DNA of 64,000 bases. Source: Macrocystis pyrifera. Lineage: Eukaryota; Sar; Phaeophyceae; Laminariales; Laminariaceae. Each line of letters starts with the position of its first letter. Within the stretch, counting starts at the first letter, position 1. This document shows, piece after piece, positions 735 to 63,330 of the stretch. The notes under the pieces are model-generated. The model did no database searches. It saw nothing but the letters and a program-made list of their open reading frames with translations, and was not told the origin of the DNA. Where the stretch lies: assembly GCA_031763025.1 (NCBI GenBank), contig JASSKH010000005.1:13596528-13660527 (forward strand), read 5' to 3'. The translations under genes and the position numbers were made by a program.

Positions 735-1427
<693 letters not shown>

Positions 1428-1699
1428 CTGAAACACGGCAAGACATGCCATGTCGTTCCAAACCAAAAAAAAACAAAAAGGTTTCCGAGGAGAAGGATGA
1501 ACGAGGGGGGGGGGGGGGGGGGGGGACAAATGGGGTCACCACTAGACTCTCTTCTGGTTCCATCCACATCATATCATACAATAAAGTACTATTAATACTT
1601 GGGCTGAATGAACTACCGCATGAAATTTTACCAACGTCCCCCTCCCCCCCTCTCCCCAAAAAAGAAAGAGGCAGTGGTTGCAACTCCCCTCAGAACCCT

Positions 1700-1880
1700 A
1701 GCAGCACCCCCCCCACACCTCACGGCGCTTCGCGCTTGGTGGAAGCAACGCCTGCCTGGTCAGTGAAAACCCGACGTACTCCGTCCCAGCATTGTAGGGA
1801 AGCCAGGGTCCATGGTCATTCATACGACTACAGCCATGCATGGCAATGAGTACACCCCCCCGTCCCCCCCCAAACTCCTC
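1700..1880 (+). mobile_element. R1 partial copy in kinase A intron
   Basis: CCTCACGGCGCTTCGCGCTTG to GCCATGCATGGCAATGAG, TACACC and a C-rich end. It begins about 70 nt from the exon 4 donor in transcript order and is antisense. Confidence 0.75.
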
Positions 1881-1921
1881 CTCCTGACCCCTTCCAAACC
1901 CCTCCCCATCACCCCACTTAC

Positions 1922-2110
1922 CCAGGCGTGCCGCACTGCGTCGAGAGCCCCTGCGTTCCCACGGGCCGCGCGAAGCCGAAATCAGCAAGCTTGATCGCGG
2001 CATCGTCATCGTCGGTCACCAGCAGCAGGTTTTCCGGTTTCAAGTCGCGGTGGGCCACGTCCCGGTCGTGGCAATACTGGACCGCGTGCAGCAGTACGAG
2101 CAGGACATCC
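1922..2110 (-). CDS. Kinase A, exon 4 (catalytic loop and DFG)
   Basis: This is the catalytic core exon of the CAMK-type kinase. It begins with the last base of a split Arg codon and reads [20 protein letters not shown], then HRDLKPEN with the catalytic Asp and Asn, [20 protein letters not shown] with the Mg2+-binding DFG, and STQCGTPG leading into YVAPE of exon 5. All key residues are present, so the enzyme is predicted active if the frame problem in exon 5 is not real. Acceptor is GAGCAG and donor GTAAGT. In the transcript the intron after it is G-rich and runs into an antisense R1 repeat about 70 nt past the donor. Coding is intact. Confidence 0.93.
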
Positions 2111-2554
2111 CTGCTCGTCGTCGAAGGAGGCGAATTGTCGTATAAAAGGGGGGCAGGGGCAAGGGGGGGGGGGGGAGCGGCGGGGGGGGGGGGGGGGGGG
2201 GGAGGGGTCTTTTAATTTGTTTCAAAGGCGCTATTAGGCCAATTCTTATGCCGTCGGATTCGCAGTCAGTTGAAAAAAAAAAGTCCCTTTCAGCACGTTC
2301 ACGTGAGAGCTTTTGCCCCGGAAAATGTTGAAAACTGGTTCATTCTCGCCTCAGAGTGTGCCGGGAGTTCTCTCCAAGATCTATCTGGGTGGGAGGTGTT
2401 TTTTTTTTTCCGCTTCTCAAGGGGGCCCGGTTGCAAGAAACCACCGTCGGCACTTTTTCGATCCAAATGAGGTGAGAAGATGATTGCGATCGGGGTTCGG
2501 ATCGAAAAATACGTAAAATCCGACGGCATAAGAAGTGGCCTTAGGATCAGGAAC

Positions 2555-2673
2555 GGTGCTTCGTGTCCAAAAGGGATGCGTGGTGAATGGTCAGGTGAGT
2601 AAGGCAAGCAACAAATGAATACACCCCCCATGATAATGAGTACGCCCCCCCCCCCCCCCCCCCCCCCCCCCCC
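2555..2673 (+). mobile_element. R1b repeat with poly(C) end
   Basis: AAAGGGATGCGTGGTGAATG, GTAAGGCAAGCAACAAATG and GAGTACGCC then 29 C. Related blocks occur at 3320-3464 and 26275-26342. Confidence 0.65.
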
Positions 2674-2687
2674 GCCCCCCAATTATA

Positions 2688-3234
2688 TCCAGGTTGGGTT
2701 GGCGTCGGTTGGCAACGACACCGTAAAACATGCCGCTCTCTACTTGAGCTAGACAACCAGGGTACCCCCTTTTTTTTTTTTTTTTTTTTTTTGGCGGTCG
2801 GTCACAGCTGGTGGTCGAGTTAGATCATTTGTGCGAGGTGAAGAGCCTATACTCCGCACAAAGGGAATGCTCGCATCACGTAGTGTTCGTGGTAAGGCAC
2901 CCAAGAGACAGTTTCATAGTACTCCCATTGCTGTCTCTGGAAGTGGCTACACCAGAAATTAAATCAACTCATTGAAGCTGTCATCCATACATATGCAAGT
3001 CCGCCTCACAAGCGGTTCGTAGCAGGATGCAGCTCACCCTTCACGCGACTCGCCCAACACCTCACGGCGCTTCGCGCTTGATGCAAGCAATGTCTGCCTG
3101 GTCGGTGAAAGCCCGACGTGCTCCGTCCCGGCATTGTAGGGATGCGAGGGTCTATGGTCATACGACTACGGCCATGCATGAGATCGAGTACACTCTCCTA
3201 TCGATTACCCCCCCCCCCCCCCCCCCCCCCCCCC
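2688..3234 (+). mobile_element. R1 repeat with poly(C) end, copy 3
   Basis: Full-length like copy 1, with a longer inner T run (2769-2792) and 26 C at 3209-3234 after GAGTACACTCTCCTATCG. Antisense in the intron between kinase A exons 3 and 4. Confidence 0.78.
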
Positions 3235-3319
3235 GCGTACACGCAAAGGGGATAAGATTAGCAAAACGTTCATATGCAACATATGGAAACAACGTAATGA
3301 TGGAGGAGTCTCTACTAAG

Positions 3320-3396
3320 ACTAGGAGCGGTGCTCCGTCTCGAAAGGGATGCGTGGTCAATGGTTAAATGACTAAGGCAAGCAACGAATGAGCACG

Positions 3397-3464
<68 letters not shown>
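3320..3464 (+). mobile_element. R1b repeat with a 68-C tail
   Basis: GAAAGGGATGCGTGGTCAATG, CTAAGGCAAGCAACGAATG and AGCACG then 68 C at 3397-3464. Antisense in the kinase A intron, with the C run nearest the exon 3 donor. Confidence 0.7.
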
Positions 3465-3467
<3 letters not shown>

Positions 3468-3521
3468 TCCATCTACAAGCACGAAAATCATCCATTTTGC
3501 ACATTACTTCGGGGGGCTCAC

Positions 3522-3661
3522 CTGGCCTCCTTCTCGTTATAGAACTGCTTCAGCACGATGCGGTCGAACAGCTCGCCCCCGTCGAGAATCTCCATGACCA
3601 GGTAGTAGAAGTGCTTCTCCTCGTAGAATGCGTACAGCTTCACGATGTTCTCGTGGTTCAT
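3522..3661 (-). CDS. Kinase A, exon 3 (N-lobe to hinge and helix D)
   Basis: The exon reads MNHENIVKLYAFYEEKHFYY, LVMEILDGGELFDRIVLK and QFYNEKEA, ending in the first two bases of an Arg codon. This is the subdomain IV-VI region of CaMK-like kinases: the HENIV beta-4 entry, the hinge LVMEILDGGELFDRI and the (Y)NEKEAR helix. The acceptor is TAACAG and the donor GTGAGC. The AUG at its start is not a start codon, because exon 2 ends in phase 0 at the homologous LLQE junction. In the sense direction a run of about 68 G lies in the intron shortly after its donor, followed by a repeat called here R1b. Confidence 0.93.
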
Positions 3662-4299: not shown

Positions 4300-5435
4300 C
4301 AACATCTCGGCTACACCAGGTAGATCCTCATGTACCAGGTAGGTGTTTATCTCGAGGGCTATAATAACAACAGCTAGTACAGCAGTTCACAGCCCACAGC
4401 TCCTGCCTCGCGATAGGCTGGGCATATATCACACCACAACGCGAAAAGGCAACATGCACTACGGAGCTGCTGCGCTTGCTGCAGGGCATACTCTTGTGCT
4501 CTCGGAAAATTCCTTGCGTACGAGAGCGCGCGAACACTCTATTTCGTGGTACCATGTGCTAATTTTCGCTCGAGAGAATGTAGTGCATACGACTTTACCC
4601 CTCAAGTTCGACAAAAAGTTTGGGATAGTCCACTGACTCCTGAATGCACTCATACCGATAAATTTACCAGGCAGCCCGGAAATTTCCTAGAGGACGAGAG
4701 CGCGCGAGTGCGCCCCTGTACAATGCATATGCGATCGTATATATATTGTATATATATGTACCGTGTTGCATCTCGCGCGGAGAGCAAGCAACATGTACGA
4801 ATTGACCTAAGCTACACAAAGTGGTTACCCTACGTATACGATGGGTATTACACCTTCGTTCTACGGCGAATGAGGTCGAGATAGTCAACACCACCGAATC
4901 ATTACATCTTCACTCCGAGAAATTTTTCGGGCAGAAATGGTTGATAGTCCACACTACCTCATCAGTGCATCTTCGTCCCCGAGAAATTTCTCAGGGGAAA
5001 GCCGATGATAGTCCACACTACTACTGAAACTCATCCGTGTTGCTCCTAATTTCCGAGAAATTTCCCCGGCGATCGGGGTTACGGTTCCATCTCGGTCACG
5101 CTTATTCCTACGCAGTACTCCACGTTTATTGAATAGTCCAAGTAACATGTTGGTTCGGGAAGAGCAAAGACGGACACACCCCACCGTCAAGTAAATCACA
5201 CCGGATGGCCTAGAGGCTAAGCCGCTGCCAAAACAGCAGTTGCATCGCATATCGCAAAAATCACACGTGTTACCCTACCTACTGTAGTTTTGGGACGCTT
5301 GTCACCAGTATTCAACCATCATCCGGTAGGATATTCCCGGGAAATTTCTGGAAAATTTACAGTCCTGGAAATGTACAGTCACATGCTATAATAGTATAGC
5401 AAGCGTTTCCGCCCAAAAACATGACTAAAAATGCT
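4300..5435. other. No gene; worn tandem motif and a tRNA-like relic
   Basis: In kinase A's intron. The motif CGAGAAATTT(C/T)T..GG with GATAGTCCACACTAC recurs four to five times between 4500 and 5070. At 5200-5235 GGATGGCCTAGAGGCTAAG resembles a tRNA 5' half, but no matching T arm follows. Confidence 0.4.
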
Positions 5436-5545: not shown

Positions 5546-6720
5546 AGAAATACCAGGGTACCTGGTGCACGTTGATACACGGCGAAAAAACGCGTATATC
5601 CTTTGGACCGCGGACAAAAAACGTGCGCAGTGCGGGCGGGCTCGAAAACGGGTATGCGGCAAAAGCCTCACCCCCCCCCCCGCCTTCGGCGAATTATGCG
5701 CGCCAGCGCAACATAGTATTAATTTCGCCACGTGTCGAGAAACCCGACCCTAGCATACACGAGCAAAAAAAATAAATAAATAAATAAATGAAAAACAAAC
5801 AAAAAACGAAGCTTCTGCGAGATCGAAAAATTACTCGAAGCTCATATTTGCAAGCTTCGTGTGATAATTCGATATATGTACCAGTGTAACATGATGTGCA
5901 TATATATATATACGCGTTTACACCTGAACCCTGCCTGACACCTTTTGAGGTACCAGGGTATATATGAATACATTTATGGAAGCTCGTTCGACCACCTCAT
6001 CACACGGGTGATAAGACAACAGCCAAAACCGTACAACCCGGGTGATGAGACCTAACACACACCCCCGGACGAATTCCAAACCAGGTTTATTGTTACAACG
6101 GGGAGAGCCAAAACGCCTACCAGGTACATGCAACGCCTATACCACAAATTTCGTTTGCGTGTGTGCGTGCGTGCGTGCGTGCGTGAGTTCAGTGCGCGTC
6201 CCCCCCCTTTCTTCAGGATGAAATCGGCTCAAGAAACTCCAGGAGGGGCGGGTGTTATCTATCTTCCGTGTTATTTACCACCACAAAATTCAAGATCCAA
6301 AACTCCTGAGACAACCCGATGTCGGGATCGAGATATACAAAAAAAAAAAACAGCTATTGCGATTACTGCTGTAGCGATGGAAAGCGTGGTGTGCAATGCA
6401 AGCAATCGCATTTGTACTGGGTTTACTTCACGAGAGAAACGACACCACCAACAACATCTACATCTTTCACAAAAACGTGTCCCAGGCGAAATGCTGGAAC
6501 AAAGCGCGCCAAAATACGCTCGAGACTGACCGCTGATAGACTGTCGACAGCCGACAACAAAACAGGCTTGTTTGACATCAGATACATATACGTTCGTCGT
6601 AGTTGCACTATGCCGGAAAGCTGCACGTGTTGACGTACTTGCTGATGGGCTGCTCCGCTACAAAATAATTGTACATACTCTTGACTGTGTGTGCTATGTA
6701 CTACTGTACCAACAATATTA
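5546..6720. other. No gene recognised
   Basis: Intronic to kinase A. Contains a GTGCGTGC microsatellite (6160-6186), a CGCCTTCGGCG hairpin and a TACCAGGTA word at 6118. A 133-codon frame at 6128 has repeat-like composition and no domain. Confidence 0.5.
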
Positions 6721-7564: not shown

Positions 7565-8130
7565 CATATTATTAGTCACATTCTTCGGGTACAAAATACT
7601 CCATGAGATTTTTTTTTCAAGGACCGACGCGGTCGACCATATCGCCTCTGCGTTTTCCGCGCGTCGCTTAACGAAAGCGACGACATCATCCCAACCCTTG
7701 CTGCACGATGAACGGCTTCATCGACTGATATATAACGTCGGCTCGAAAAACAATGGCAGTTTCAAGTTCCAAGTAATCGAAAAATGCCCCCAGACCCCGA
7801 GAAAGCGCCCCCTGAAAAAATTAGTAAAACCCCTCACGGGCCGCCGCCGGTGGCCCAATCTCGCACTTTAAACTTAATACCTGGTACAAATATAGTACAT
7901 AATAAAACATGTTTACGGCATTTTTCAAGTTTTTTTTTTTCTTCCCCTCGTTCGAGGTCTCGGTGCCAAATGGCAACGGTCGACGGCGGCGTCAAAGCAC
8001 CGGGGAAGGGTCGACGGCGGAATCAAAGCAACAAAAAATGGGAACAGGATGCCAGGCACAAAGAACAGCAGCATGTACCCAACCCACTCTGACCCGAAAC
8101 GCAGGCAACATAATATTCGATGCAAACGGT
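7565..8130. other. No gene recognised
   Basis: Kinase A intron. Basic-residue frames around 7780-8090 have no domain; a TACCTGGTA word lies at 7878. Confidence 0.5.
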
Positions 8131-20864: not shown

Positions 20865-22195
20865 TAGTGACCTACACGCCCTGTAAAAGGCGTGATCGAA
20901 TTACCACACCAAGCTCGCAAAGATGAGTTTTGAGTACGTATTCGATCTCACAGCTTCGTTTTTTTTCTTTTCTCAAACTATAGTATTAATAGCATACCAG
21001 TAGACAAAGTGTAAGGCAGACAGAAAGGCAGAGGAAGCTCACGACTCGGTGCCACGGTCGATTTGCAACTACCTAGAGCTCAGAAGTGGCGGCACTCGGC
21101 GACCAATCCTGAAAAAAATGGTCCCCAATCGGCATAAAAGAACCCGAGGATCGATCCTGAAGAAGAAACATTTGCCAGTCGTGTCTGAGAGGTGCGAGAC
21201 TAAAACCGAACGGGACAGCTCAGCTGGGGTAGACAAACTTAAGAAAGTCTACTACTGCTGTATATACCGGGCGCTTGGTAACACACACCGAACAGCAGCG
21301 TATCGAACCATGGGCGAAAACGTCGGGGCATACACAAAAAAAACATACCAGGTATTTGTTACCGGTGTCATATGTACGATTGACCACTTCAACGCGACGA
21401 CGCACGCCCAAACGCCACAACCATCAAACTATTGATACCTGGTACTCGTACGTATTTACTCTTTCCTTTTCGCAAGATAGATACGGTATGGTCCTGTTGG
21501 GTGTTGATTCTGTTGGTTGGCTCTGCCTTGCTGTTGGCTATCGCCCCTGGATTTTGGAATCTATTCCTCAGCGGGGAGATCTGGCGAGTTGCTGATTATT
21601 ACATTTTTTCGTTTTTATAGAAAACATATCGGTACCAAGTACCAGGTAGAAATACATGTATTATTAAAAAAAGGTGTACGCGCAGATGTATCCGAATCTT
21701 CGCAGACCTATGATAGAAGATAAGATGATATGATATGATGATACTACACTGGGCGTAAATATAAGGACCGTTCGGTATTGATACTAATGTATAAATGGTA
21801 CTTTATATTTACGCCCAGCGTGGTCGCGTACCTACTGCAATGTCGGCATCTCTGAACTTACCATGACTTGTGGTCTCTGGTGGTTCGTGGCTTGGGTCGT
21901 ATTTTTCCTGCAGTCCAACGCAGGCCAACGAGCGGTTGAGAAACCTCCTAGATATTTACAATATATTACTGTGATCATAACTATTCTAAAACTGCAAACC
22001 CTGCTGGCGCCGCTGGCCGTTTTCAGTTTTCACGGCTTTTTACGCGATGGTCGTATATATTATGAAACAAGCATAACCACAGGCAGCAGCCGTCGACGCA
22101 CATCATAACTCAAAACGTTCGTCGTGCTTCTCGAGTGCTGCGGTACATAAACACACAACGGCAGTCGGTGTGAAACCTTACCCCCTAAGAGTACG
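20865..22195. other. Kinase A intron 1, no gene recognised
   Basis: Holds the small MITE at 21750 and three TACCWGGTA words (21346, 21436, 21640); otherwise unique. Confidence 0.45.
21750..21826. mobile_element. Small MITE with CTGGGCGTAAATATAA ends
   Basis: A 77-bp element with arms ACTGGGCGTAAATATAAGG and TTTATATTTACGCCCAGCG. A second full copy is at 55453-55550 and fragments at 34480-34505, 50350-50440 and 52690-52755. Confidence 0.65.
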
Positions 22196-25920: not shown

Positions 25921-26274
25921 CATAACACACTTTCCGCATAGCATCCCCCCCCCCCCATCCCCCACCACCCACCACCACCACCACCACCATAATGTTGGTA
26001 TGCTCCCTTCCTTCTACGTACACGCTACCAGGTACGTACGTACGTATAATCACCACAGGGTATGTAGTATTTTGTTGCGGCACCCTTACGTGCTTCGGCG
26101 TACATGAAGCAGAGGCCGCAGTGCGTAAAACATAGCACACACTTTTATCCTAGCCACACACCGCACCACCATCACACCTCCCTCCCCCACCGACCACACC
26201 GCCACCATATCAAAAGCGTCCTTCATTTTACTCATTTTACACACTCCTATCGTCTACTGTCTAAACCCCGCCCC

Positions 26275-26342: not shown

Positions 26343-26411
26343 ACCGCCGTAATGCCCCTTCGTGCTTCTGTATACCCTTCCATTATCATACCAGGTATGT
26401 TATGATACCAG

Positions 26412-27649: not shown

Positions 27650-28716
27650 TCGTCAGTGAACGAGAAAGAGAGAGAGGGAGCAGAGTAAGGGTTTTAACTT
27701 TTTTTACGTCTGCTCGGGCTGCTCTGTGTGTATTAATACCTAGCACCAGTATTACAGCAGTACTGGTTGGTATAACTCTTCGCTGTTGCATCGTGCAGCC
27801 GGTATATATTCACATTTGGAGCTATGCATACGAGAACGCCCAGGTAGCGAAGGCGAAAAGCCAAAAGCTTGGGAGCAAAGCAAAGGCGAGAAGCAAAGCA
27901 GAAGCGGGGCAGCACCATTGGCCAGCGCCCGATCGTACCTGTCGTTCGCTGATTGAAAGGCTCAAGGTACACGCCTCTTGTGGCTACTCAAGTTACACGT
28001 CTCTTGTGGCTGTTCAAGTTGGGCTTCACCTATTTTCGGCTTCAACCTGTACCTACAACCGGCCTCTTTCCCTCTCAGAGAGATGCTCCTTTTGCGGGGG
28101 ACCCTACATAGTAAATAAATAGGACCTGAGGTATACACAAAAACCTATATATTTCCCTATTTTTACCAACATTATTTGGTCCTATTTACTTTGGCCCCCC
28201 GTGATAGTCACAGCCAACAGCCCAGCTTCTTACTGGGCGCTTGCTGAGTCTGCGGTGCTCTTGTTTGACAGTACATAAGCCCCCGCTATACTTGAGTTCA
28301 CAGCAATATGTTCGTGGTTTATTGTTGACAGCTCGGGTCACCTGACCCCGACGGCCCTGCTGTGGCCGTGATACAAGCAGTCAGTGTTGCTATAAAATAG
28401 TTGAATTGAGACATTTATGCTGTTACTAGGTACAAGTGAGGCAAAAAATGGATTCATCCCAACCTGGGTAGCCAAAGAGGTGTGTGCACCTGGAACCTTT
28501 CAGCCAGCAGCAGTAGCTAGGATCGAGCGTTAGCCAATCAGAGGGAGAGCCAAGAAGCCTTTTCCCCACGGCGATTTTATTAAATCGTCAGCTGTGAGTC
28601 CCCACTGCGATATACAGTGTACCAATTAATTGCTCAAACGGTATAGATAGGTACCTGGTACACATTTTTGGCTTCTGTCCTTGACATATAGCGTGCGAAT
28701 GTTACGAGGTCTGGGT
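27650..28716. other. Downstream of the unknown exon; possible further exon
   Basis: A candidate exon at about 27798-27967 reads AYENAQVAKAKSQKLGSKAK and a Lys/Ala-rich stretch. The rest is unique with MITE-1 at 28.1 kb. Confidence 0.3.
28091..28204. mobile_element. MITE-1 copy with worn left end
   Basis: Left end TTTGCGGGGGACCCTACATAG, right end GGCCCCCCGTGA followed by TA. Confidence 0.8.
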
Positions 28717-29087: not shown

Positions 29088-29657
29088 AGCAGAGTAGGAA
29101 CATACCTGGTATATTTCGTATCAAACTGGTGCAATGCATTCCAGCAACAAGTAGTAGAGATGTCAGAATATGTATCATACGGTTGGGATTTAGCGTCCGT
29201 CCTGCACGCCAGCACGACTACGTACGGCTATTTTGTACGATCTTTTCACGTTTTTTTTTTTTTTTCGATAACTTGTCGATAAAATTCAACGTGGAATGGT
29301 TGATGAACAAGTTATCACGACACAGGCCCTACTGCTTGGTCTGTCTTGTGTCTGCAGAGCTCGATCTTACCAACTCATTCGAGGAAATGGTTGCGACACG
29401 CTATGTGGGAAGACTACGCTAACCAATGGTTGAGTGTGTCTGATTGGCTTGGGACTCAGGACCCCTCGGGTACCTCTAATGCCATATATGGGCTACCAGG
29501 GTACTGCTGTGCCAGGCTACGTAGTGGGCCTTCGAAAAATGGTACCTGGTACCTGGTACATATTTGACTACTGCCATAGCCCACGTACGGCGGTAGGTGC
29601 CAGGTGTTGCTGTCACTCTGAGGTACCAAGCATCCCTTGGGTACTTTGGTAAGACTG

Positions 29658-34130: not shown

Positions 34131-34941
34131 TTTTTTCTCGACATAATGCTTCTTAGCTGCGGGCGACCACTGCCTGTACAGGTTTTGGTGCAGCAGTACA
34201 ACTCGTATCTGCAAGTGGGAAATGTGTACCTGGTACCAATGGCGTTTACTATATACAGGCGGAGATCTTCAGGGAAGTATATATAATATAATATCAATAA
34301 TTATTTCAAGCATTCACATGTTTAGGTTGGGGACGCGCTGAGATTAACTAATTTCGCAAAAAGAGGGACGCGACTATCGCATCTACTTTAGCTACAGCAG
34401 TAGCGTTCAGCCAACTGCCAGATTCCATGCTCGTAGGCAGCCAGTTCGTTTGGCGCAAAAACCGTCAAAATTAACAGACCAATCACTCCTTATATTTACG
34501 GCCAAAGTGGTTTACAGCATGCAGCATGCACACCCTCGTGCGAGTGCGCGGGATCAAAGTATCGCACACAGCTTGCCCACATGAGTTTCGAGGAATTTTT
34601 TGCAACGATCTCACAGCTCATGTTGTGTGTTTGCATGTGTCATATTATTCTATTTTTTGGCGGGACATGCCAATTTGACCGCTCTTACACCCCGACTCTT
34701 TGAATTATCTGATACAGGCCTCTCTGTTTACGCTGCTCTACCACAAAAAATGTACGACAGCAGTAATAAAGTTCCAAGGGATTGAGGTTACAACAGGCCG
34801 GAGGCGCGTAAAAAGGGCCTCAAGAACTTGATACTTCAGCGCGGGAAAAAAAAAAACAAAAAAAAAAACGCAAACCTCGCGGCGAAATATGTTGCGGGAT
34901 GCAGATGCCATTTTGCGTCAACTAGCCGCAGCAACGTGATA

Positions 34942-35052
34942 TTGCGGAGGACCATGGTAAATAGGACCAAATAATGTTAGTAAAAATAGGTAAATATATA
35001 CCTGGTAGGTTTTTAATACACCATTGGTCCTATTAACTAAGGTCCCCCGTAA
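34942..35052. mobile_element. MITE-1 copy carrying a TACCTGGTA insertion
   Basis: TTGCGGAGGACC to GGTCCCCCGTAA with TA outside. Where all other copies read ATATAGGTTTTT, this copy reads ATATACCTGGTAGGTTTTT: seven added bases (CCTGGTA) at a TA, 34999-35007. Confidence 0.9.
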
Positions 35053-35088
35053 TAGTATAAAAGAGCAGTATGAACCTATGAACCGACT

Positions 35089-35441: not shown

Positions 35442-35639
35442 AACAGCAACCTTCCGGTGGGTATTGCGCTTGTGAGTACGCACAAAGTCCCAATCCGGCC
35501 GAAGTAAGTATTAGTATGTACGCCAAGCGCAACAGCGCAAGAGTTTGTTTTGGTATGTACTCCCGCTGCTGCTGTACGTACATATTGCTGGACGAGACGA
35601 TAGATCGAAATGTGTTCAAGTACGTAGAACTTGCAGATA

Positions 35640-35792
35640 CAGCAGTAATGGTCCCTCTATGTATAGTGGCAGTCGGCACTGCTCCGCACACTAACTACAG
35701 TACCACGCTGGTGAATCCCCTTTGACAGGTGCCAAGCGATTCCACAGGCATTACAGCGAGCAGCCGACATTATAGAGGCACCACTACTGCTG
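35640..35792. mobile_element. MITE-2, complete copy (CAGCAGTA...TACTGCTG)
   Basis: The 153-bp element has inverted ends CAGCAGTAATGGTCCCTC and GAGGCACCACTACTGCTG, with TA on both sides. Inner sequence GCCGGTCGGCAC/GATTCACCAG is shared with other copies. It holds a TACAGTA at 35696-35702 where copies at 31.8 and 35.2 kb lack the extra bases. No coding capacity. Confidence 0.85.
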
Positions 35793-36189
35793 TATTGCTG
35801 CACATATAGGTCGCGCCGGTGATCTATTGGTTAAACTCGAAGATGACTTGTCAATACTACAACTTAAAGTAGAGTTGACAGAGTTGAATGGCATTGGTTC
35901 CCGAGTCTACCCACGAGCACGGATGCTTTTTTTTTCTCAAAATGACCCCATCCACCGTTGCCGAGAGCGCCTACTATAAGATTGTAACGTGTAACAGGCG
36001 CGATTCGGCGCGAGTCGCCAAGAGAAGAAAGGGCTGAACCCTTCTCGTTAAGCATGCATAGTCGGGAGGGGGGGGGAACACTACTATTTAACCCCGGATC
36101 TGAGCTACGGCTAGGAGGGAGCAGGTGTTTGCTACAACGATTACCCTGGGCTGGGTAAATCGATCGATCTTTTACCGCTATAGGTCAGT

Positions 36190-38875: not shown

Positions 38876-41370
38876 ACCGTTCTTTCTACGCGTCGACATC
38901 CAGCACAACCAGTGTGCGTGCCGATTCTTCAATCCTAGAGAGATACAAGTTATGTGGTCACAAAGCTACGCCACAGATATACTACGTTGCACAGCAGTAC
39001 ACAATGCAATGCCATGCCATCATACTGGATACGACAGGCAGGACATACACATTCTATGAAATAGAGAAACGAAAGAAAACAAAGAACTAACAAAAACAAA
39101 CAAGACAAATTGAAAGATAAAAAGAAAAAAGAAAAACTAACAAAGAAACAAACTGTCGTGCCCCCCCGCAGGGGATGTGGCAGACACTTGCAAAGAACGA
39201 GCTGAAAAGAAAAGAAATAGAAGCAAAAACACCACTTCTTGTAAACACAGAGTAAGACTAAGAACCAAGGGAAAATAACAAACCAAAGCACAAAGCACCC
39301 TCCAGGTAGTGGCAGCAGTTTGTGGTACGAGTAGCATAGCCAGATTCTCCCTGCTATTAATAGTCCGCCTGGTACCTTGCTATCCTGTCTGCCTTCCCCG
39401 TCTTGCGTTCGTCAACTATGCCCCGCCCCTCGGCGTTAGACAATACGAAACAAGCAAAGCAGGCACGTCATCCACCCACGCCGCACGACTCCTTTAATAA
39501 GGCTTATCAATAGAAGAAAGGAAGAGCAAGAAATGAAATGAAAGTCACAAAGGATCAGCGCAAGAAAGAAATAATAAAGAAGACAAAGGAAGACCACGTT
39601 CGAACCAGCTGCACCAGTTGGCGCCACGAGTATTGTAGGCATGTTCTACTTCCTAGTCGGCCTGGTGCCTTGCTACCCTGTCTGCCATCTCCTTCCTACT
39701 TTCGTCCACCGCGGTTTCCCTTCTACTCTTCCTGTTCCCCCCCCCTCTCCGCATTCCCTTGGTCGGGTTTCCTTCCACCCCAACTGTTGCCCCCCCCCTC
39801 CCCCCATTCCCTTGGACACCACCCACGGCGGATGCGCGGCACTGCCTACTCAGCTCAGCCTCATCCTCGTGCCACCCCAACATGAACCGTTCGGCTGCTG
39901 CGAGGATCCCCCGATACCACTTCCCCGCCTTTTTTGCTGCAGTGGACCACAGCGCGGTCTCAACTCCAAACACCAAGGGGGCAACTTCCGTTGATCCTTC
40001 GGTGACTCGGAACTCCCTGAGGTCTTCGACGAGGCATCTATGCCAAGTCTTAAACTGTCTGCCAGGTCTCGGGTTCTCCCCACCAGCCATCGTCCCGAAC
40101 GTTTCCCGACTGGCTAATCGTTCCTTGCTTTGCCGTGCCACGACCCCCGCAAAGAAGATACCGCCCTTTACGAATGGTCGTTTGGATGCTCTCGCGACAT
40201 GTCATGTTGTGGGCCTTCGCGTACGAGAGGGTGGCATGGTCAGTACGAAGTCGGCGCTGGAAGCAACAGGACTTGGTGGTGAGCCGTTCGAACCTTGGCA
40301 AAATGTTCCACTGTGAGGGTCAACGTCACACACCCATACAGCAGGGTCTCAATCACCTCAGCCTTCAGCATTCGGACTTTCAGGCTAAGGGGGGCGGTCG
40401 TCCTATCATACAACTCCGGGCCGAACCGTTTGTGGCATGCTCGCATGAGACGGATCCGTCGGTCGATTTCGAGCGAGAGGTCAGCGTTTTCGTGGATAAT
40501 GCAGCCCAGATATAAGAACTGGGCCGTCTGTATATACCTCTGGCCTGCTGCTTCGATGACGAGCGGTGGTACAAGGGTTGTCTGGTCTGGTGTTCGTAGA
40601 AGCATCGTCTCTGTCTTCGTTTCCGACACCGTGAGGCCTGCTGCTTCGAAGACAGTCACGATGACTGTTATCATTTTCGCGAGCCCTTCAGCCGACTTCG
40701 AGACAATTCCTACATCATCGACGTACAACATGCCCCATGCAGCCCTTCGCACGCACGCCAACGGCTCCTGCTCCTCCGTTCCGACTTCTCCAGCATCACT
40801 GAGTTGGACCAAATCCCTTTCGATGGCTTCGTCTTGGCTGAAGCGTACTATTAATAGTACGACGTGTAACGCAGCAGCGAAGAACACGTTGAACAGTAAC
40901 GGTGATAGCACACGGCCTTGCCGCAGCCCCTGCGTGACATCAAACCATTCCGAGTGCTCGCCGTCATCCGTACGCACGCGAGCCCGCATGCCATCGTGGA
41001 AATAATTGGATAATTCTCAGCATCTTGGTTAGTACGCCAAAGGGTGTGAGTGCCTCCCATTGCAGCTCTCTCTCGGTCGACAGAGTCGTGCGCAATCTGC
41101 AGATCGATGAAGCACACGTACAGGGGGATTTTCCTGTGTCGTCCGAACTCTTGCGACTGGCGCACGACGAACAACATGTCAATCGTATATCGTGCGGGGC
41201 GGAAGCCGCACTGTTCCTCCGGGAGTAATTTATCGGTCTCGCAGTAGTTGCTGAGGCGGGACGCGACGATTTTCAACAAAACTTGGTCTGCGTAGGGAAC
41301 AAGCGAGATCCTTGTGTAGTTGTTGCAATCAGTTCGGTCCTTCTTTTGCGTAAGCACAACAGTACACAAT
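38876..41370 (-). mobile_element. LINE (non-LTR retrotransposon) copy 2, 5'-truncated
   Basis: The element reads on the minus strand and starts at 41370, inside the reverse transcriptase, so the endonuclease part is missing. It ends at about 38876 with the common tail found all over the window. The 3' untranslated part (about 38876-39640) contains the CCCCCCGCAGGGGATGTGG box shared with copies 1 and 3. Five-prime truncation is usual for LINEs copied by target-primed reverse transcription. Its low-coordinate end abuts the 834-bp inverted-repeat element at 38039-38872. Confidence 0.85.
39653..41369 (-). pseudogene. LINE reverse transcriptase remnant (copy 2)
   Basis: The translation begins in RT motif 0/1-2 (DRTDCNNYTRISLVPYADQV, then LLPEEQCGFRPARYTIDML). 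It continues through motif A (IPLYVCFIDLQIAHDSVDRE), motif B ([17 protein letters not shown]) and the catalytic motif C YVDD at 40714-40725, then a thumb and C-terminal region ([36 protein letters not shown]). Frameshifts near 41080, 41000 and 40265 break it; the last looks like an 11-base deletion compared with copy 3. At 40849-40856 the gene carries an in-frame 6-base addition forming TATTAATA (VVLLIVRF instead of the likely VVLVRF). The family resembles R2/RTE-like LINE polymerases of protists. Not functional. Confidence 0.85.
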
Positions 41371-43005
41371 GGTTGTCATACCAGGCACTGGATATGACAG
41401 GCACGACATGCATATTCTATGAGAGAAAACGAAAGCAAATAAAAAAAGACGAGAGCAAAGAAAAAAGAAAACAGATCGAAAGGGATACGTAAAGGAGAGA
41501 AGAAAAGAAAAGAAAAGAAAAGAAACTGTCGTGCCTCCCCGCAGGGGATGTCGGTGATGTGGCAGACACTTGGGAAAAAAAGCGTGCTAAGGAAAGAAAC
41601 ACCACTCTACTAATAAGCAGAGTAAGACTACAGCAGTAAGAACCATGGGAAAATGACGGGCGAACCAAAGCACAAAGCACCCTCCAGGTAGTGGCAGCAG
41701 TTTGTGCTACGAGCAGCATAGCCAGGTTCTCCCTGCTAGTCCGCCTGGTACCTTGCTACCCTGTCTGCTGTCTCCGTCCTGCGTTCGTCAACTATGCCCC
41801 GCCACTCGGCGTTAGACGATACGCAACAAGCAAAGCAGGCTCGTCATCCACCCACTCCGCACGACTCCTTTAATAAGGCTTAATCAACAGAAGCAAGAAG
41901 AAATAAAATGAAAATCACAGAGGATCAAGCGCGAAAACAAAAAGCAAAAAAATAAAGAAGACAACGGAAGACCACGTTCGAACCAGCTGCACCAGTTGGC
42001 GGTACGAGTAGTATAGGCATGTGCTACTTCCTGGTCGGCCTGGTGCCTTGCTACCCTGTCTGCCATCTCCTTCCTACTTTCGTCCACCGCGGTTTCCCTT
42101 CTACTCCTCCTGTTGCCCCCCCTCTCCGCATCCCCTTGGTCGGGTTTCCTTCCACTCCTCTTGTTGCCCCCCATCCCCCCACTCCCTTGGACACCACCCA
42201 CGGCGGATGCGCGGCACTGCCTACTCAGCTCAGCCTCATCCTCGTGCCACCCCACCATGAACCGTTCGGCTGCTGCGAGGATCCCCCGATACCACTTCCC
42301 CGCCTTTTTTGCTGCAGTGGACCACAGCGCGGTCTCAACTCCAAACACCAAGGGGGCAACTTCCGTTGATCCTTCGGTGACTCGGAACTCCCTGAGGTCT
42401 TCGACGAGGCATCTATGCCAAGTCTTAAACTGTCTGCCAGGTCTCGGGTTCTCCCCACCAGCCATCGTCCCGAACATTACCTGACTGGGTAATCGTTCCT
42501 TGCTTTGCCGTGCCACGCCCCTCGCAAAGAAGAGCCGCCGTTTGCGAATGGTCGTTTCGATGCTCTCGCAACGTGTCATGTCGAGGGCCTTCGCGTACGA
42601 GAGGGTGGTATGGTCGGTACGAAGTCGGCGCTAGAAGCCAATGACTCGCAACAGGACTTGGTGGTGAGCCGTTCGAAGCTTGGCAAAGTGTTCCGCTCTG
42701 AGGGTCCACGTCACACACCCATACAGCAGGGTCTCAATCACGTCGGCCTTCAGCGTTCGGACTTTCAGGCTAAGGGGGGCGGCCGTCCTATCGTACAACT
42801 CCGGGCCGAACCGTTTGAGGCATGCTCGCACGAGACGGATCCGTCCGTCGATTTCGAGCGAGAGGTCAACGTTTTCGTGGATAATGCCGCCTAGGTATAA
42901 ATAAGAACCGGGCCGTCTATACATACCTCTGGCATGCTGCTTCGATGACGAGCGAGCGGTGGTGCGAGGGTTGTCTGGTCTGGTGTTCGTAGAAGCATCG
43001 TCCCT
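41371..43005 (-). mobile_element. LINE copy 3, 5'-truncated
   Basis: This copy is directly adjacent to copy 2 in the same orientation. It starts at about 43005 after the RT catalytic motif and lacks the last ~130 bp of the tail that copy 2 has. It is close enough in sequence to copy 2 to act as an empty-site comparator for the small insertions described in the findings: CTAG at 41736-41739 versus CTATTAATAG in copy 2, and the extra CAGCAGTA at about 41631-41638. Confidence 0.85.
41998..42960 (-). pseudogene. LINE polyprotein C-terminal remnant (copy 3)
   Basis: It encodes YLYLGGIIHENVDLSLEIDG, LLRVIGF, then a single TAG where the family has Gln (F-Q-RRLRTDH), and continues MTRCESIETTIRKRRLFFA, PRPGRQFKTWHRCLVEDLRE and WYRGILAAAERFMVGWHEDE to a stop. 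Apart from that nonsense codon the C-terminal domain is intact, so this copy is younger or better kept than the other two. Confidence 0.8.
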
Positions 43006-45312: not shown

Positions 45313-45489
45313 ATTAAATAGTGATCTCAACACTTATTCAAGAAAATGGATGATATATATAAGGTACCAGGTAGGTTATATACACTGCTGCTGCGGTTGT
45401 TTAGGAGATGGATGAACTATTAATAGCGCCAACATGTGGTTGATTGGGTTTGCAGCAGAGAGCTCTCTCCAACTTTTTCGAAAAAGGGT

Positions 45490-45960
45490 GGGCATGGACT
45501 TCCGCCTGTGCAGGCGAAGTTTCAGAACCTGCCAGCAAAAAAAGGCGCGATACTTCCAGTGGAAACCCGCACAATTACTTGAAGATCACCATGAAGGGCA
45601 CACAGCGCGAATCGAACGAACACACACGCACGCACACGCTAGCTCGGCAGCAGAATAAGCTTGCATAAATGGCTCGCAAAGCAGGCGGCCAGGGCGGGCT
45701 CTACGGCGAGTGCGGCTGGTGCTATTAATAGTGCCATTATTTCCAGGTCGTTTGTTGTTGTGCACAGACTGTACTCTCGCACGCAGCTCTCACACTCGAG
45801 CCGCCGCACACAGCACCACAAAAGCAGCAGCAGCAGCAGCAGCAGTACAAGCAGGGGATAGAGGAGCGGCACGAGCTCCCTCGCTGTTGTAGCTGCTACG
45901 GCACAGCAGGCTAGTTGCTCGTTTAGTACCCCTGACACAGCTATAGCCATCTAGAAAAGC
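45490..45960. repeat. Inverted duplication, left arm
   Basis: The reverse complement recurs at 46540-47010: TAGCTGTGTCAGGGGTACTA, CGAGCAACTAGCCTGCTGTG, the CAGCAG run, CTATTAATAG and AAGTAATTGTGCGGGTTTCC. Spacer about 580 bp. The arms are roughly 85% alike with small gaps. Leu-rich frames come from the CTG runs. Confidence 0.8.
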
Positions 45961-46539
45961 AACAAGACATAGTCTCGGTATTACAGGAAATGACACTACA
46001 GCATATATATATACCGGTAGCGTAACGGTATTTGGCACTTGTTTTTTTGTTTTGGGGAGTGCAGACACATACCCCTCTCGACGATAATTTAATACCGTTT
46101 CGATTCTAATATCGTGACTAAACGCAACTACTTCGAAGTATATTCCCGGCCCTCAGGGTGGTACTGCTGCACCAACGAACGTGGTGCATGCTGCTGTGTA
46201 CGTACAGCAGTACGCTTACAGCAGTACCAACGAACAAATGCTGTACCAGGTATATATATGCTCAACCATTGACCGCAAGTCCATGGGTGGGAGTTCGTGT
46301 TGGTACAGCAGCAGTATCACGCTTGCCGGAATAAGGGATAATGATTACCTGGTACGTTTAGTTTTTGGTTTCGATACTGCTGTATTGGACTCCCAACGGT
46401 ATTATGTTTGTGTCCAGAGTGTGTGTCCGGTCGCAGCAACCCAAAAATATACCAACGTGCTTTTAACGTATAAAATACCGTTGTACTTGACGAGTATTTA
46501 ACAGCAGTGTGTCAAATCCCTGTAATAACGAGACTTATC

Positions 46540-47010
46540 TATGTCTTGCTGCTTTTCTCGCTCAAGATGCCTATAGCTGTGTCAGGGGTACTAAACGAGC
46601 AACTAGCCTGCTGTGCCGTAGCAGCTACAACAGCGAGGGAGCTCGTGCCGCTCCTCTATCCCCTGCTCGTGCTGCTGCTGCTGCTGCTGCTTGGTGCTCT
46701 ATGCGGCGGCTTTAGTGTGAGCTTGCGTGCGAGAGTACGTCTGTGTACAAAAAAACGACCAGGGTGTAATGGCGCTATTAATAGCACCACCCGCACCCGC
46801 CGCAGAGCCGCCCTCTCAGGCCGCCCACTTTGCGAGCTTGTGCGAGCTTCTACCGCTGCTGAGCTAGTGTGTGCTTGCTAGTGTCTGCGTGCGTGTGTGT
46901 TCGTTCCCTGCGCGCTGTGTGCTCTTCTTGGTGATTTTCAAGTAATTGTGCGGGTTTCCACTGGAAATGACATGCCTTGTTTTGCTGGCAGGTTCTGAAT
47001 GTTCACCTGC
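46540..47010. repeat. Inverted duplication, right arm
   Basis: Partner of 45490-45960. The TATTAATA words at 45723-45730 and 46776-46783 occupy the same place in both arms, so that insertion predates the duplication. Confidence 0.8.
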
Positions 47011-47222
47011 CCAAGCGGTTCTACGTCGGCTGCATAGACTGCTGCTGTGTCCGAGATGAAGGAACTAGCGATAGCCAATGGTACCGTTTGGCTCGAGTAA
47101 AGCTACCCTCTGCTGTGGTTGTGATGTTTGTTGCTGAGCATCCGCGCATCCCACCCATACATTGCTCTGATACTGCTGCTTGTGTGCTTGTTGCACCTCA
47201 TGTGTGTGTGGGAGTTCTTCAC

Positions 47223-48340: not shown

Positions 48341-48613
48341 TATTAGTACAGCAGTATCATCGATGTTTGATTGTTAGAGCCGTTACATCAACTTGCAACT
48401 TGCAGCTCATTCGAGGAAAGGGGATGTTTGCGGACACTCGGCACACTGCTGCTAACTGCTGTGTACCTGGTACGAGTCGAATGGAATAATGCTCTCACCA
48501 GAGCACGTTTCGACGCGAATCGACGGGGGAAGAAAGTAACGGACTGATCTCGCGATGGCAAGAATGGAAGGCACGTACGGTCGTGGGGGAGAGGGGGGAG
48601 AAGAGTCTACTTA

Positions 48614-51369: not shown

Positions 51370-52140
51370 ACTAATTTCTCCTCTCTTGCGATGTGTGTTG
51401 GTCGTTCCTGTCTCCCATTTTATGCAACAGTAGATCGACCGGAAACTTGGCACACACGTAGCAGACACAGACGCGATGAGTGCGCCGTCAGTGGCCGTCA
51501 TAAAAGGAGGAACTTGATGTGGCGCTGCTGCTGCTGCTGCTGTGCCGTATGCCGTTGCTGCCATATAGCAGAAAGCTTGAGAGGACGGTTTGATAGAGAC
51601 ATGGTACGGCAGCTCTCAGCAGAGCAAGAACCTCAAGCTGTGGGGGGTTCCCATTGTCCTGCTTGCCTAGCTCGGTGGAACGCCTCCCCGCGATTTTCTT
51701 GGGAGATTTCGCGAGTTTTTAACGCCCAAGAGGACGTGCCACGGCGGCCGGCCGGGACCGCACACTTGCGCCGTGGTGTACACGCGGGCTCCGTGAGTAG
51801 CCCCGCGGCCGAGAGCGTGAGATAAAAGACCCGCGGTCGGAAGAAAAATCGTGGCTGGTGTGCTAAAAAACGAAAAGTCAATTTGGTCTGGCACATACAC
51901 TTGTGTCTGATACCAGGTACTGATACTGATACTGATACTGATACTGATGTGCCGATCTGGCCCGGGAATATAATCTCCGTGTAGTAGTGTCATCTGAGTG
52001 CACATGGTGATTATATTACCGCACAGAGTGGTATTGGCATACAACTGCTGCAGTGGTGTGCCCACTTGAGACCATCGCGCAGAAAGCCCTAAACGCGTGG
52101 CCTTATCTCTAATATGGTCTTCTGCTGTAACCATATTTTA
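51370..52140. other. No gene recognised; open frame at 51364-51825
   Basis: A 153-codon plus frame, Cys- and Arg-rich, covers a CTG run and a GC-rich patch. It starts inside a MITE-1 end and shows no domain, so I do not call it. A CTGATA microsatellite lies at 51919-51948. Confidence 0.35.
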
Positions 52141-52143
52141 CTA

Positions 52144-52254
52144 TTACGGGGGACCATACAGTAGTAAATAGGACCAAATAGTGTTAGTAAAAATAGGAAA
52201 ATATATAGGTTTTTGTGTGTATTGTAGGTCCTATTTACTATTATCCCCCCGTAA
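52144..52254. mobile_element. MITE-1 copy carrying a TACAGTA insertion
   Basis: TTACGGGGGACC to CCCCCCGTAA, flanked by TA. The left arm reads CCATACAGTAGTAAATAGG instead of CCATAGTAAATAGG: five added bases at a TA (52157-52163). Confidence 0.9.
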
Positions 52255-55554: not shown

Positions 55555-57510
55555 GTTTTAGTGTAGGCCGGTCCAGCCGATTTGGTCTCTGTCAACTGTA
55601 CTGCTGTTCTCCTTATTTAGCGTGTCCCCTTTGAGGTTGGAGTACCCGCTACTGCTGTCCGTTGATCGCGTTGCTATTGTCGTCGTCGTTGTGGTCGTGG
55701 TTGTTGCTGTTGTTTTGGTTTTTTTGCCACCGTGGTTGTTGTTTCCGTTGCTGCGATGGTTGTTTCGTTGTTGGTTTTGTTAGCGACGTGCCAGGCGTTA
55801 CGCTGCTGTTGTTGTTGTTGTTGTTGTCGTCTTGACACCAAAAACGTCGAAACCTTTTGCTGTTTCTGCTCGGCGACGCCCCAGCAGCACGGTCAGGTCC
55901 TTCCAAACGCTCGGATGTACTGCGTATACGACCAGATTCTTGTTCCGGTGGTCGGTAAACGCGGTACGGGTAAACGACGGGGTGAGATACACCAGGTATA
56001 TATATAAGCCAGTGTCTACCTGGTACGTGCTATCACGTCCTCTTCTCCCTACCGCACGGGAGTATCTTACTCCCCGGGCCACCGCTTGCCGGTGTCATAT
56101 CTCGGGTAACACCGAGGACACAGCCTCTGTCTACATCGGCAAGGTACAACGCAAATATCCATAATAACCTCAGTGCCAATTTGTGATTGCTTTGAAGCAA
56201 GTTAACGTAAACAAGTGGCGCAGAAAAAGGCAAAGCCGAATTTCAGTTCTCAGTTTTTGTATCTGTCTCACCCGCATTACATTACTGACCAACTTTCTTC
56301 ATGGAATTTTTTTTTTTTTGCGACGTTAGTTCTGTCTTTTTCAGTGATCTCTGAAGCTCAAAAACAGAACCGTCTGTTATGGGCCAGGAAATCATCGATA
56401 CTTTTGATCTCAGTTCCTGGAGGGGGCAAAAATCAGCTCAGTTCTGAGAGGTTTCTCACATTTATCAGGACTCAGATTAGCTGGATTTTGTGTAATGTAG
56501 TATTACTTCCCTTTATCTGCCCAGCTGTCAAGTACCCAATATTCACGCCGAAGTATCACACCCATCTACGGCGAGCTGTACGTACTGCCAACGGCGCTTG
56601 TGCAGGAGAGATGGCTTCTCCCCCACATGAAAGCGATAGCAGCAGCAGCACAACAGCAAAAACAGCAGCAGCAGAGTAGTAGTAGCAGGCATCACTGCTG
56701 CTGCTGCTGCTGTGGCTGCTGCTGCTGAGCAGCCGCAACACCAGCAGCAAGCAGCACAACACCAGCAGCAGCAGCAGCAGCAGCATCGCAGCAGATAACA
56801 ACTTGCAGTATCCGCCCGAACTACTGCGAGTACGGGACGGGTACTGTACGCGCAATATCGCACAATGAAACACTCAATCATGAGTACAGGCAGTAATCGC
56901 AGTGAATATCCCAAGATGCTGCGAGTGTGAGCAGTATATCGAACACGTGATACCTGATAACTGATATCGATCTGATAACTGATATCGATCTGAAATGCAG
57001 AACAACCGCAACACACTGCTGACGTGGGCAGTATTCTCAGTGTGAACCCCGGAATGCTCAGGTTGGAGAGGCGTGAAGCGCACGCAGCGGTATCCACAGC
57101 AGCACAGAACCCCGACTCACTGCGAGTACTCGCGGTGGGAGCAAGCAGTCTCGAACACTCGATCATATCCAGTAGTGCTCGCCGAAACAACTTGACGATT
57201 TTTTCACCAGAAAGTGTTGAGGCGAACATCTTTATATCTTCTACCTGGTGCGAAGGATCGTATCTTTAGAGGGGGACCGTTTCTCCCATTTTTTTAGGAG
57301 ATACCTGGCATCTGGATATGATTTTTTTTTCCAAGTGAAAAACGTCTGCTGTGAGTACGACCGATTGAGTGGTTGAAACTCATCAACAATGGGAGCTGCG
57401 CGATGCGTCAGACACGCTCATCAGGCGCCCTTGTTGTGGATATTTGGTTTTTCTTTGTGCATGTTCGAAGTAGAACGTCTCTGAACTACTGTACTGCTGC
57501 TGCTGCATAG
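55555..57510. other. No gene recognised
   Basis: GTT-rich and CAG/CTG-rich stretches (55680-55835, 56640-56790) create Val/Gln/Leu-rich frames on both strands. GATATCGATCTGATAACT is repeated at 56960-56995. No exon evidence. Confidence 0.45.
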
Positions 57511-58440: not shown

Positions 58441-58934
58441 GTCGGTGGCGTGAGACCCCGAGATGCGCGCACGGGAAAACACCCGTCGGAGCCTGGCGAG
58501 CGCGACCCTCGAGGAAAGCCGTCGAAAAAGCAAGCGAAAGCAAGCGCGAAGCCAGGAAAGCGAAGGCGTCTGGAATCCAGGCTAAATTCAACACGAAATG
58601 TTCGGAATCGGAAGCGAATGTTTCTCTCTCAGTCGTCGCAAAGGATTGTATATATGTACCAGGTATATATAGGTATATATACCTGGTGTGTATGCTATAT
58701 TTTTACTCGTGTTCCGTGTTTGCTTTGTAGGAGTATGTTGACGCCAAGCTTCCACCTGCCTCGGTCAGTCGCTTCCTGATTTGCTATATAGCTGCTGCTG
58801 CTGCTGCTCTACTAGTTGCCCCATTGCCGCTGGTTGCCGCTGCGAGACGAGAGCCCTCTGTAATAGCCTGCTTCTTTTTTTTTTTCCGCTCCTGCTGCTG
58901 CTTCTGCTGCTGCTGCCGATTGCCGCTGCAACGG

Positions 58935-60204: not shown

Positions 60205-61255
60205 CGGAATATGTGCAAGGACAGGTCCAACGCAGGAAACACGTCTACCTATATCATGCAGGTTATGCGGGGCCCACCCGGCGACATGAGCAAGATCACA
60301 CAGATCAGGAATAGGTAGAACTGTATAAAGAGGCGTGTTCTACGGTAGAGGTGTCACATATGGGAAAAAAAAAAAAAAAAAAAAAAAAGTCTGAGCCACC
60401 ACGGCATCCTTACCGAGCTCTAGTTGAAGGAAGCACACACAGTACCAAAGTTCGTGGGGATATCTTTGTCTTAAGTATTGAAAGTGCCCGCCCCGCACAC
60501 CCCCAATCGTTATTAATATTAATTGTCGTATTCATATGTTTGTACCCGTTGAATTCCGCGTTGTACCGAAGGGGAGGGGGACATGAGAGCCTCAGAAAAA
60601 AAATAGAGTGAACCTGTATCTGCCCGACGGGAGCGAGTAAATGCAGAGATGACGAACGTATCGGGTACGAAAACGAACTATGAACAGCCCAGCAAAACGA
60701 TACCAGGCATCATGGTTCGTATTACAGTACCAGGCGTGTTGTTAGTAGCGTTTTTAGTGCAAAGGGAGAAAATGAGAGGAAGAGGAGAGGAGAAGAGAAG
60801 CGACTGCGATACGATACGCAGCAAATGATGTATGTGGCGAGAGTAAATAGTCCCAGGTACCAGGTATCGTATACCGCCAGATGCGGCAGTGGTGTTGCTT
60901 CGTGCTGAGGCTTCGCGCGCGGTGTATATTTTCGTGCGTGCGTGATTCAAGTCATGGTGAGCCTGCACACGGCAACAATGTACCTACTATGATACGATGA
61001 TGTGTATAACTTTTGTCTTTTCCTCTCTCCCTCACTCCCTCCGTTCTTCCCCGCTCCTGCTGGTAGTTGCCCGGTGACGGGGGTGCAAATGCTTGCCCCC
61101 CGTCCCACCCCCCGCGCCTTTCCCACTCGTGACGTGGTCGGCATGCACCGGTCTTTCGCCTTGGCGAGTGAGTGCGAGTGCTTACCCCCCCCTTGCCCCC
61201 GCGCCCCCCTCGCCTTCCCGCCGTCCTTTTTTAAATAAAAACCCTGTCAACTGAT
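60205..61255. other. Kinase B intron 1, second half
   Basis: A run of 24 A at 60365-60388, TATTAATATTAA at 60511, a TACCAGGTA word at 60858 and C-rich sequence before the acceptor at 61259. Confidence 0.5.
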
Positions 61256-61259: not shown

Positions 61260-61394
61260 GTGCGGATACTGCGCGTGATACAACACCCGAACGTGGTCGG
61301 CGTGCACCAGTTTTTCAAAGACGATCCCGACTACTACTACGTTGTGCTTGAGTACATGGCCGGGGGCGAGTTGTTCGACCGCATCGTCACCAAG
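61260..61394 (+). CDS. Kinase B, exon (hinge region)
   Basis: These 45 codons read VRILRVIQHPNVVGVHQFFK, DDPDYYYVVLEYMAGGELFD and RIVTK. This is subdomains III-V of a CaMK-like kinase, with the HPNVV strand and the VVLEYMAGGELFDRI hinge. Acceptor GATGTAG, donor GTATCG, both junctions in phase 0. The first GTG is an internal Val, not a start. The reading frame stays open for hundreds of bases past the donor only because the intron is C-rich and nearly lacks stop codons; that extension is not protein. Confidence 0.93.
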
Positions 61395-61469
61395 GTATCG
61401 TATTCTTTTGACGTTTTTTTTTTATATATTTTTGAACGGAACCGATCCGAACAGAACAGAACTCCATCC

Positions 61470-63155: not shown

Positions 63156-63330
63156 GTATTCATGCCATGCATGGCCGTGGGCATTATGACCATAGAGACC
63201 CCCGCATCCCTACAATGCCGGGACGGAGCACAACGAGGTTTCACCGACCAGGCAGACATTGCTTGCACCTAGCGCGAAGCGCCGTGAGATGCTGGGCGAG
63301 CCACATGAAGAGTGAGCTGTACCTGGTAGG
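63115..63330 (-). mobile_element. R1 partial copy with 39-nt poly(C)/poly(G) end
   Basis: 39 G at 63115-63153, then the reverse of the R1 3' half (CATGCCATGCATGGCCGTG, CCTACAATGCCGGGACG, CTAGCGCGAAGCGCCGTG). Antisense in the kinase B intron. Confidence 0.72.

Follow-up and report, generated by a model that had tools for sequence, protein, structure and literature searches.

Over-represented TACCWGGTA words in a brown algal genome as probable excision scars of a TA-inserting DNA transposon family

The window analyzed here, a 64-kb stretch of brown algal DNA, harbors many copies of a TA-flanked element with inverted ends (here named MITE-1), one complete copy of a second such element (MITE-2) and a reverse transcriptase (RT) fragment at 40240 to 41016 with an RVT_1 match in Pfam. 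A kinase-like exon is located at 61260 to 61400 on the plus strand (Pfam Pkinase, 31.6 bits, just below the cut-off of 31.7), and another one, recognized by eye only, lies on the minus strand at about 3560 to 3630, near the other window end. The window also contains a large inverted repeat at 45502 to 47018 (arms of about 500 bp, 82% identical, with a center of about 510 bp) and long poly-C/poly-G tracts, e.g., at 3397 to 3464, one of them of 68 nt. Dispersed among these features is the short word TACCWGGTA, whose positions are compiled in Table 1 together with related elements and words.

Table 1. Positions of TACCWGGTA and of related elements and words in the window
Feature	Coordinates	Strand	Basis or remark
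MITE-1 copy, TIR TTACGGGGG..., TA at both ends, carries TACCWGGTA insertion	34940..35054	+	
TACCTGGTA, probable scar	34999..35007	.	7-nt insertion at TA of MITE-1; empty MITE-1 copies
TACCAGGTA, probable scar	4333..4341	.	without empty comparator
TACCAGGTA, probable scar	6118..6126	.	without empty comparator
TACCTGGTA, probable scar	7878..7886	.	without empty comparator
TACCAGGTA, probable scar	21346..21354	.	left edge of chance-level TIR pairing 21346-21648
TACCTGGTA, probable scar	21436..21444	.	word and enrichment
TACCAGGTA, probable scar	21640..21648	.	right edge of chance-level TIR pairing 21346-21648
TACCAGGTA, probable scar	26026..26034	.	word and enrichment
TACCAGGTA, probable scar	26389..26397	.	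word and enrichment
TACCTGGTA, probable scar	28652..28660	.	word and enrichment
TACCTGGTA, probable scar	29103..29111	.	word and enrichment
TACCTGGTACCTGGTA, two overlapping probable scars (29543, 29550)	29543..29558	.	as if a second insertion had used a TA of the first scar
TACCTGGTA, probable scar	34227..34235	.	word and enrichment
TACCAGGTA, probable scar	45365..45373	.	word and enrichment
TACCAGGTA, probable scar	46244..46252	.	word and enrichment
TACCTGGTA, probable scar	46346..46354	.	word and enrichment
TACCTGGTA, probable scar	48464..48472	.	word and enrichment
TACCAGGTA, probable scar	51911..51919	.	word and enrichment
TACCTGGTA, probable scar	56017..56025	.	word and enrichment
TACCAGGTA, probable scar, within TA-rich near-palindrome	58657..58665	.	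word and enrichment
TACCAGGTA, probable scar	60858..60866	.	word and enrichment
TACCTGGTA, probable scar	63320..63328	.	edge of duplicated stretch; paralogues diverge there, no clean empty site
MITE-2 element, TA flanks, inverted ends CAGCAGTARTGGTSCCTCTAT	35638..35794	+	candidate source of TACAGCAGTA scars
TACAGCAGTA, probable scar, 8-nt insertion CAGCAGTA at TA	41629..41638	+	empty TA in RT paralogue 39092-39462
TATTAATA, candidate MITE-1 scar	39355..39362	.	6-nt difference at TA from paralogue near 41750
TACAGTA, 5-nt insertion CAGTA at TA in MITE-1 copy	52157..52163	+	Sleeping Beauty-type scar

TACCWGGTA occurs 23 times in the 64 kb, in plus-strand spelling 11 times as TACCAGGTA and 12 times as TACCTGGTA. 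A preliminary description of this DNA had listed these positions with an expectation of about 0.5; all coordinates proved exact, and 100 dinucleotide shuffles yielded a mean of 0.46, none of them reaching 23. Markov models of orders 1 to 3 predict 0.48 to 0.62 occurrences; the values of 1.29 and 5.08 at orders 4 and 5 come from models that capture a large part of the word itself. With repeats masked, TACCAGGTA was found 22 times versus 0.48 expected. When the 256 words of the form NNCCAGGNN were ranked on both strands, TACCAGGTA came out on top with 23 and by far the strongest enrichment was that of the form with TA on both sides. The runner-up, TACCAGGCA, occurs seven times versus 0.59 expected (e.g., at 26955, 14565 and 60701) with flanks that look unrelated; these sites may be decayed scars or the product of another process. 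The S-centered variant TACCSGGTA has a single occurrence, at 6829.

Since TACCWGGTA is its own reverse complement save for the central A/T, TACCAGGTA and TACCTGGTA are one word on two strands, and the 11:12 split is uninformative because any dispersed word would give both spellings. For the same reason, repair to either CCAGG or CCTGG, as proposed in the preliminary description, adds nothing to the case. One-mismatch forms of TACCAGGTA number 27 versus about 12.8 expected, counted with three RT stretches masked and the A/T change at the center left out as the same word. This excess suggests that the set includes decayed scars and does not stem from a single recent burst.

The clearest view of how the word arises is provided by the MITE-1 copy at 34940 to 35054. 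Global alignment with the MITE-1 consensus revealed a single 7-nt insertion, placed at a TA, and confirmed the seven extra bases that had been noted at 34999. The accompanying statement that all other MITE-1 copies read ATATAGGTTTTT at this position was too broad, as several differ there (e.g., ATATACAGG, ATATGTAGG and ATATATAGTTTTTT); CCWGG was seen at the equivalent position in none of the other aligned copies. BLAST splits or shifts this gap for some MITE-1 comparators. Of the 23 sites, 34999 is the only one spanned by a paralogue at E 1e-4 and the only one in the window with an empty comparator; the site at 63320 coincides with the end of a duplicated stretch. A second clean 7-nt TACCWGGTA insertion at a TA was found at position 2762 of another contig (JALZWD010000061.1, here L013), again in a MITE-1 copy and compared with 15 comparator places. 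A further MITE-1 copy on L013 carries the word at 2824 inside an 11-nt difference and is likely a third case, although the MITE-1 match holding it ends short of that site. The third occurrence on L013, at 3589, is without comparator. Insertion at TA with duplication of the TA, as in Tc1/mariner footprints, was thus observed in two clean cases and one likely case.

In total, we compared 36 MITE-1 matches, 29 in the window and seven at four other loci (one of the seven weak). Insertions of at least 4 nt among them comprise CCWGG in the copy at 34940 to 35054 and on L013, CAGTA at 52157 and two blocks of 21 and 6 nt in the copy at 48168, which resemble local duplications (flagged as such for the 6-nt block). 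A wider census of paralogous sequences counted 89 length differences of 4 to 20 nt, 13 of them in TA form; taken alone this count is weak, because tandem duplication was flagged for three of the 13 and two fall within a tandem array. The census missed 34999 as a TA form owing to the gap shifted by BLAST, and it is the direct alignments that show the insertion.

The sequences next to the sites are not random either. Counted away from the duplicated TA, the preferred bases of the 46 flanks are C/T, A/G, T, A, T, T, and the A+T content at +3 to +7 amounts to 71% versus 55%, a value reached by none of 5,000 random TA sets. For 22 of the 23 sites (one overlapping site was dropped), the information content of the flank profile was higher than in any of 3,000 null sets. 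The profiles of the left and right sides correlated with r = 0.50, a value reached in 35 of 3,000 null sets. The target flanks are hence A+T-rich and symmetric, as in Tc1/mariner footprints. The two sides are similar, not equal: read as TACCAGGTA, a G precedes the word at 15 of 23 sites and a C follows it at just 9 of 23. A flank score of 126 versus a null of 80 was set aside, since it was fitted to the same sites. The two-sided preference may be the trace of insertion by a dimeric transposase, which the scar would have inherited.

A scan of masked sequence for words enclosed by TA returned three that stand out, TACCAGGTA, TACAGCAGTA and TATTAATA, apart from simple repeats rich in TA or A (e.g., TATATATA, TACATACATA). 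TACAGCAGTA occurs 25 times in the unmasked window versus 0.11 expected (e.g., at 41629, 12612 and 24120) and 23 times versus 0.48 after repeat masking. It corresponds to the end sequence of the TA-flanked MITE-2, which has related pieces at 22475, 31683, 35139 and 36451, so that the core of the CAGCAG word consists of the terminal bases of a resident element, as is the case for Tc1/mariner scars. Four of the 25 are MITE-2 ends, leaving 21 scars.

TATTAATA was counted 24 times versus 1.9 expected (e.g., at 26665, 40849 and 39355); after masking there were 18 versus 1.2, with its extension TACTATTAATA at 9 versus 0.04. Leaving out two sites abutting MITE-1, its 44 outward flanks resemble those of 50 MITE-1 ends with r = 0.83 (null maximum of 0.69 in 2,000), whereas CCWGG flanks do not match MITE-1 end flanks (r = 0.02). 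TATTAATA is therefore likely the scar of MITE-1, whose ends read TA-TTACGGGG; two tails with TA microhomology would give TTAA. The difference at 39355 taken alone could be a deletion, because TATTAATA is shared there with another RT paralogue (17201). The TACAGTA insertion at 52157 was verified against 20 comparator places, and the word is mildly enriched overall (20 versus 11.6). With scar words of MITE-2 and MITE-1 in the same window, the CCWGG word behaves like the words of resident families, and its separate two-sided flank preference would fit a third TA-targeting element, one with CCWGG ends. Another word, TACGAGTA, is present 14 times versus 2.4 after masking (e.g., at 25673 and 18493) and could be a further scar word.

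A search for the parent element yielded no TA-flanked element with CCWGG inverted ends above chance in the 64-kb window. For this, 232 TACCWGG/CCWGGTA end pairs 20 to 12,000 bp apart were examined by comparing the adjoining 20 nt without gaps. The best inverted match, 13 of 20 positions, was obtained for 21346-21648 and for a pair involving MITE-1 sequence and was rejected, since a score of 13 was also attained in 177 of 1,000 draws of random TA pairs; a wrong-orientation control reached 12. This agrees with the preliminary description, in which no full element with CCAGG/CCTGG ends had been seen in the window. Likewise, no listed boundary of repeats longer than 140 bp in the window, as far as the fuzzy BLAST edges allow, starts with CCWGG, and no transposase was detected among the five window ORFs scanned against Pfam. 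In contrast to MITE-2, whose scars are accompanied by one complete copy and several related pieces, no element copy was found in the window for the CCWGG word, and for this reason we infer its parent.

The 23 TACCWGGTA sites most likely represent scars left by the excision of a DNA transposon family that moves by cut and paste, targets and duplicates TA and has ends starting with CCWGG. On exit, each flank would retain a single-stranded tail made of the outermost nucleotides of the element, and host end joining would pair or fill the tails to give TA-CCWGG-TA, i.e., the empty site plus seven bases. The preliminary description had likewise read the word as a transposon footprint, and the TA insertion, the enrichment, the flank preference and the parallel MITE-linked words support this in part, with parent and transposase presumed. 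Its 5-nt CCAGG overhangs can indeed yield the product but represent one of at least two routes: a 5-nt CCAGG tail would self-pair at four of five positions and lead to TACCWGGTA directly, and a 3-nt CCA tail with a one-base overlap and gap filling would end in the same word. Because the scar length is uniform, the 5-nt tail would be favored, although sequence cannot decide between the routes.

This second route is the core of a rather unlikely alternative, in which an ordinary transposase makes the usual 2- to 3-nt cut (leaving a tail such as CCA) and overlap plus gap filling or partial tail removal produces the 5-nt core. The ends of the mariner element Mos1 begin with CCAGG, the cut lying 3 nt inward, and the product would be identical to the word observed. 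Plant mariner-like elements leave 1 to 4 nt in the cited part of PMC9632168. Gap-fill joining, however, predicts mixed lengths, and the only masked words with a 5-nt core seen at least four times are TACCAGGTA (22 versus 0.48) and TATAATATA (5 versus 1.18). The 6-nt family speaks in the same sense: end-to-end joining of 3-nt CAG tails predicts TACAGCTGTA, present once versus 25 occurrences of TACAGCAGTA/TACTGCTGTA, and is disfavored by the ratio of CAGCAG/CTGCTG to CAGCTG/CTGCAG of 25 to 2. Independent repair of two A:A mismatches in a 6-nt tail was considered for this family as well; it predicts TACAGCTGTA and TACTGCAGTA and is not seen, because each occurs once.

The remaining explanations dispense with excision. 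Templated patches from end joining, or a mobile unit of just 7 nt at TA with no larger parent, would accommodate the very high density and the lack of a parent in the window, yet a fixed sequence with duplicated TA requires a defined donor end, and MITE-2 is a visible donor for the parallel CAGCAG word; we regard such insertions as improbable. Even less probable is a protein-binding or otherwise selected motif that is simply frequent: the near-palindrome with central W is typical of a dimer site, but in MITE-1 copies the word arises by a gain of seven bases at TA and not by substitutions, and two further words linked to resident MITEs parallel it. Least credible of all is descent from a longer dispersed repeat or a simple-sequence expansion. 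Some copies are clustered (29543/29550; 21346, 21436 and 21640), but the flanks look unrelated, with the single paralogue-spanned site mentioned above, which largely disfavors this explanation.

Excision scars following the logic of TACCWGGTA are in print for Tc1/mariner elements (PMC3878927, PMC7827188), the superfamily in which we would place the presumed parent. According to the cited passages, these elements cut 2 to 3 nt inside their ends, and the tails become the footprint (PMC7827188, PMC3878927, PMC2170065). Sleeping Beauty and Frog Prince of the Tc1 branch leave C(A/T)GTA after the TA (PMC3878927, Table 1) and, as described there, share with TACCWGGTA the TA target, the duplicated TA, a footprint of end bases and the central A/T; their core measures 3 nt versus the 5 nt of CCWGG with its presumed parent, and their own type of scar has one demonstrated case in the window, at 52157. 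Mariner-like elements (Mos1, Osmar5, Ppmar2) also target TA and are described as leaving short, host-repaired scars, of 1 to 4 nt for the plant elements Ppmar2 and Osmar5 (PMC9632168); the 5-nt core sets TACCWGGTA apart from them in a comparison of the scar alone. With 5 and 6 nt, the scar cores found here thus exceed the 2 to 3 nt in animals and 1 to 4 nt in plants given for Tc1/mariner elements in these sources.

Parents of this type are plausible in brown algae, since the brown alga Ectocarpus is reported to have MITEs and 17 Mariner-Tc1 families with almost 12,000 copies, mostly non-autonomous (PMC12477816). The main text of that paper contains neither "footprint" nor "excision". Among titles and abstract openings, no scars of this kind were found for brown algae, and among the matches listed, TACCAGGTA appears in at least two papers, both with unrelated titles.

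It is tentatively conceivable that the TA-targeting families of this alga cleave 4, 5 or 6 nt inward of their termini, i.e., with larger staggers than in the cited sources, and that their excision is efficient enough for scars to equal or exceed copies in number (23 to 0 found for CCWGG, 21 to about four or five copies or fragments for CAGCAG). The CCWGG family may persist largely in the form of scars and would for that reason be detectable by its footprint word alone. An over-represented word enclosed by TA can hence expose a transposon family without any copy at hand and help to tally its excisions. Should the scars of 5 and 6 nt mirror the actual cleavage, TA-targeting transposases would differ more in their stagger than the cited sources indicate. 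With about one scar per 2.8 kb of window from a single family, excision would contribute appreciably to the small insertions of this genome.

The MITE-1 core pattern was also searched in other DNA, with no match in a viral contig collection and 13 matches in a genome contig collection. L013 is the only one of the 13 that is both algal-looking (over its first ~3.65 kb, a border set by eye) and TACCWGGTA-bearing (three occurrences); this part resembles the window in its MITE-1 copies and six other short matches. Two contigs (L003 and L004) have a MITE-1 copy at the contig end and no TACCWGGTA, and the remaining ten exhibit neither a convincing MITE-1 copy (L007 weak, 68%) nor TACCWGGTA. L013 is assigned to a Flavimaricola MAG, and its MITE-1-bearing stretch (1 to 3650) is joined to bacterial-looking sequence, so that it looks like an alga-bacterium chimera whose algal-looking part was wrongly binned with a bacterial MAG. 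The protein of the RT fragment had no confirmed match in the viral contig collection. Among the matches listed (120 of 764), it has relatives in Ectocarpus sp. CCAP 1310/34 with 54 to 57% identity, and closer matches exist, in keeping with nuclear DNA from a brown alga. One match of 90% is labeled as a Luteolibacter MAG and would most simply be explained as a misbinned algal contig.
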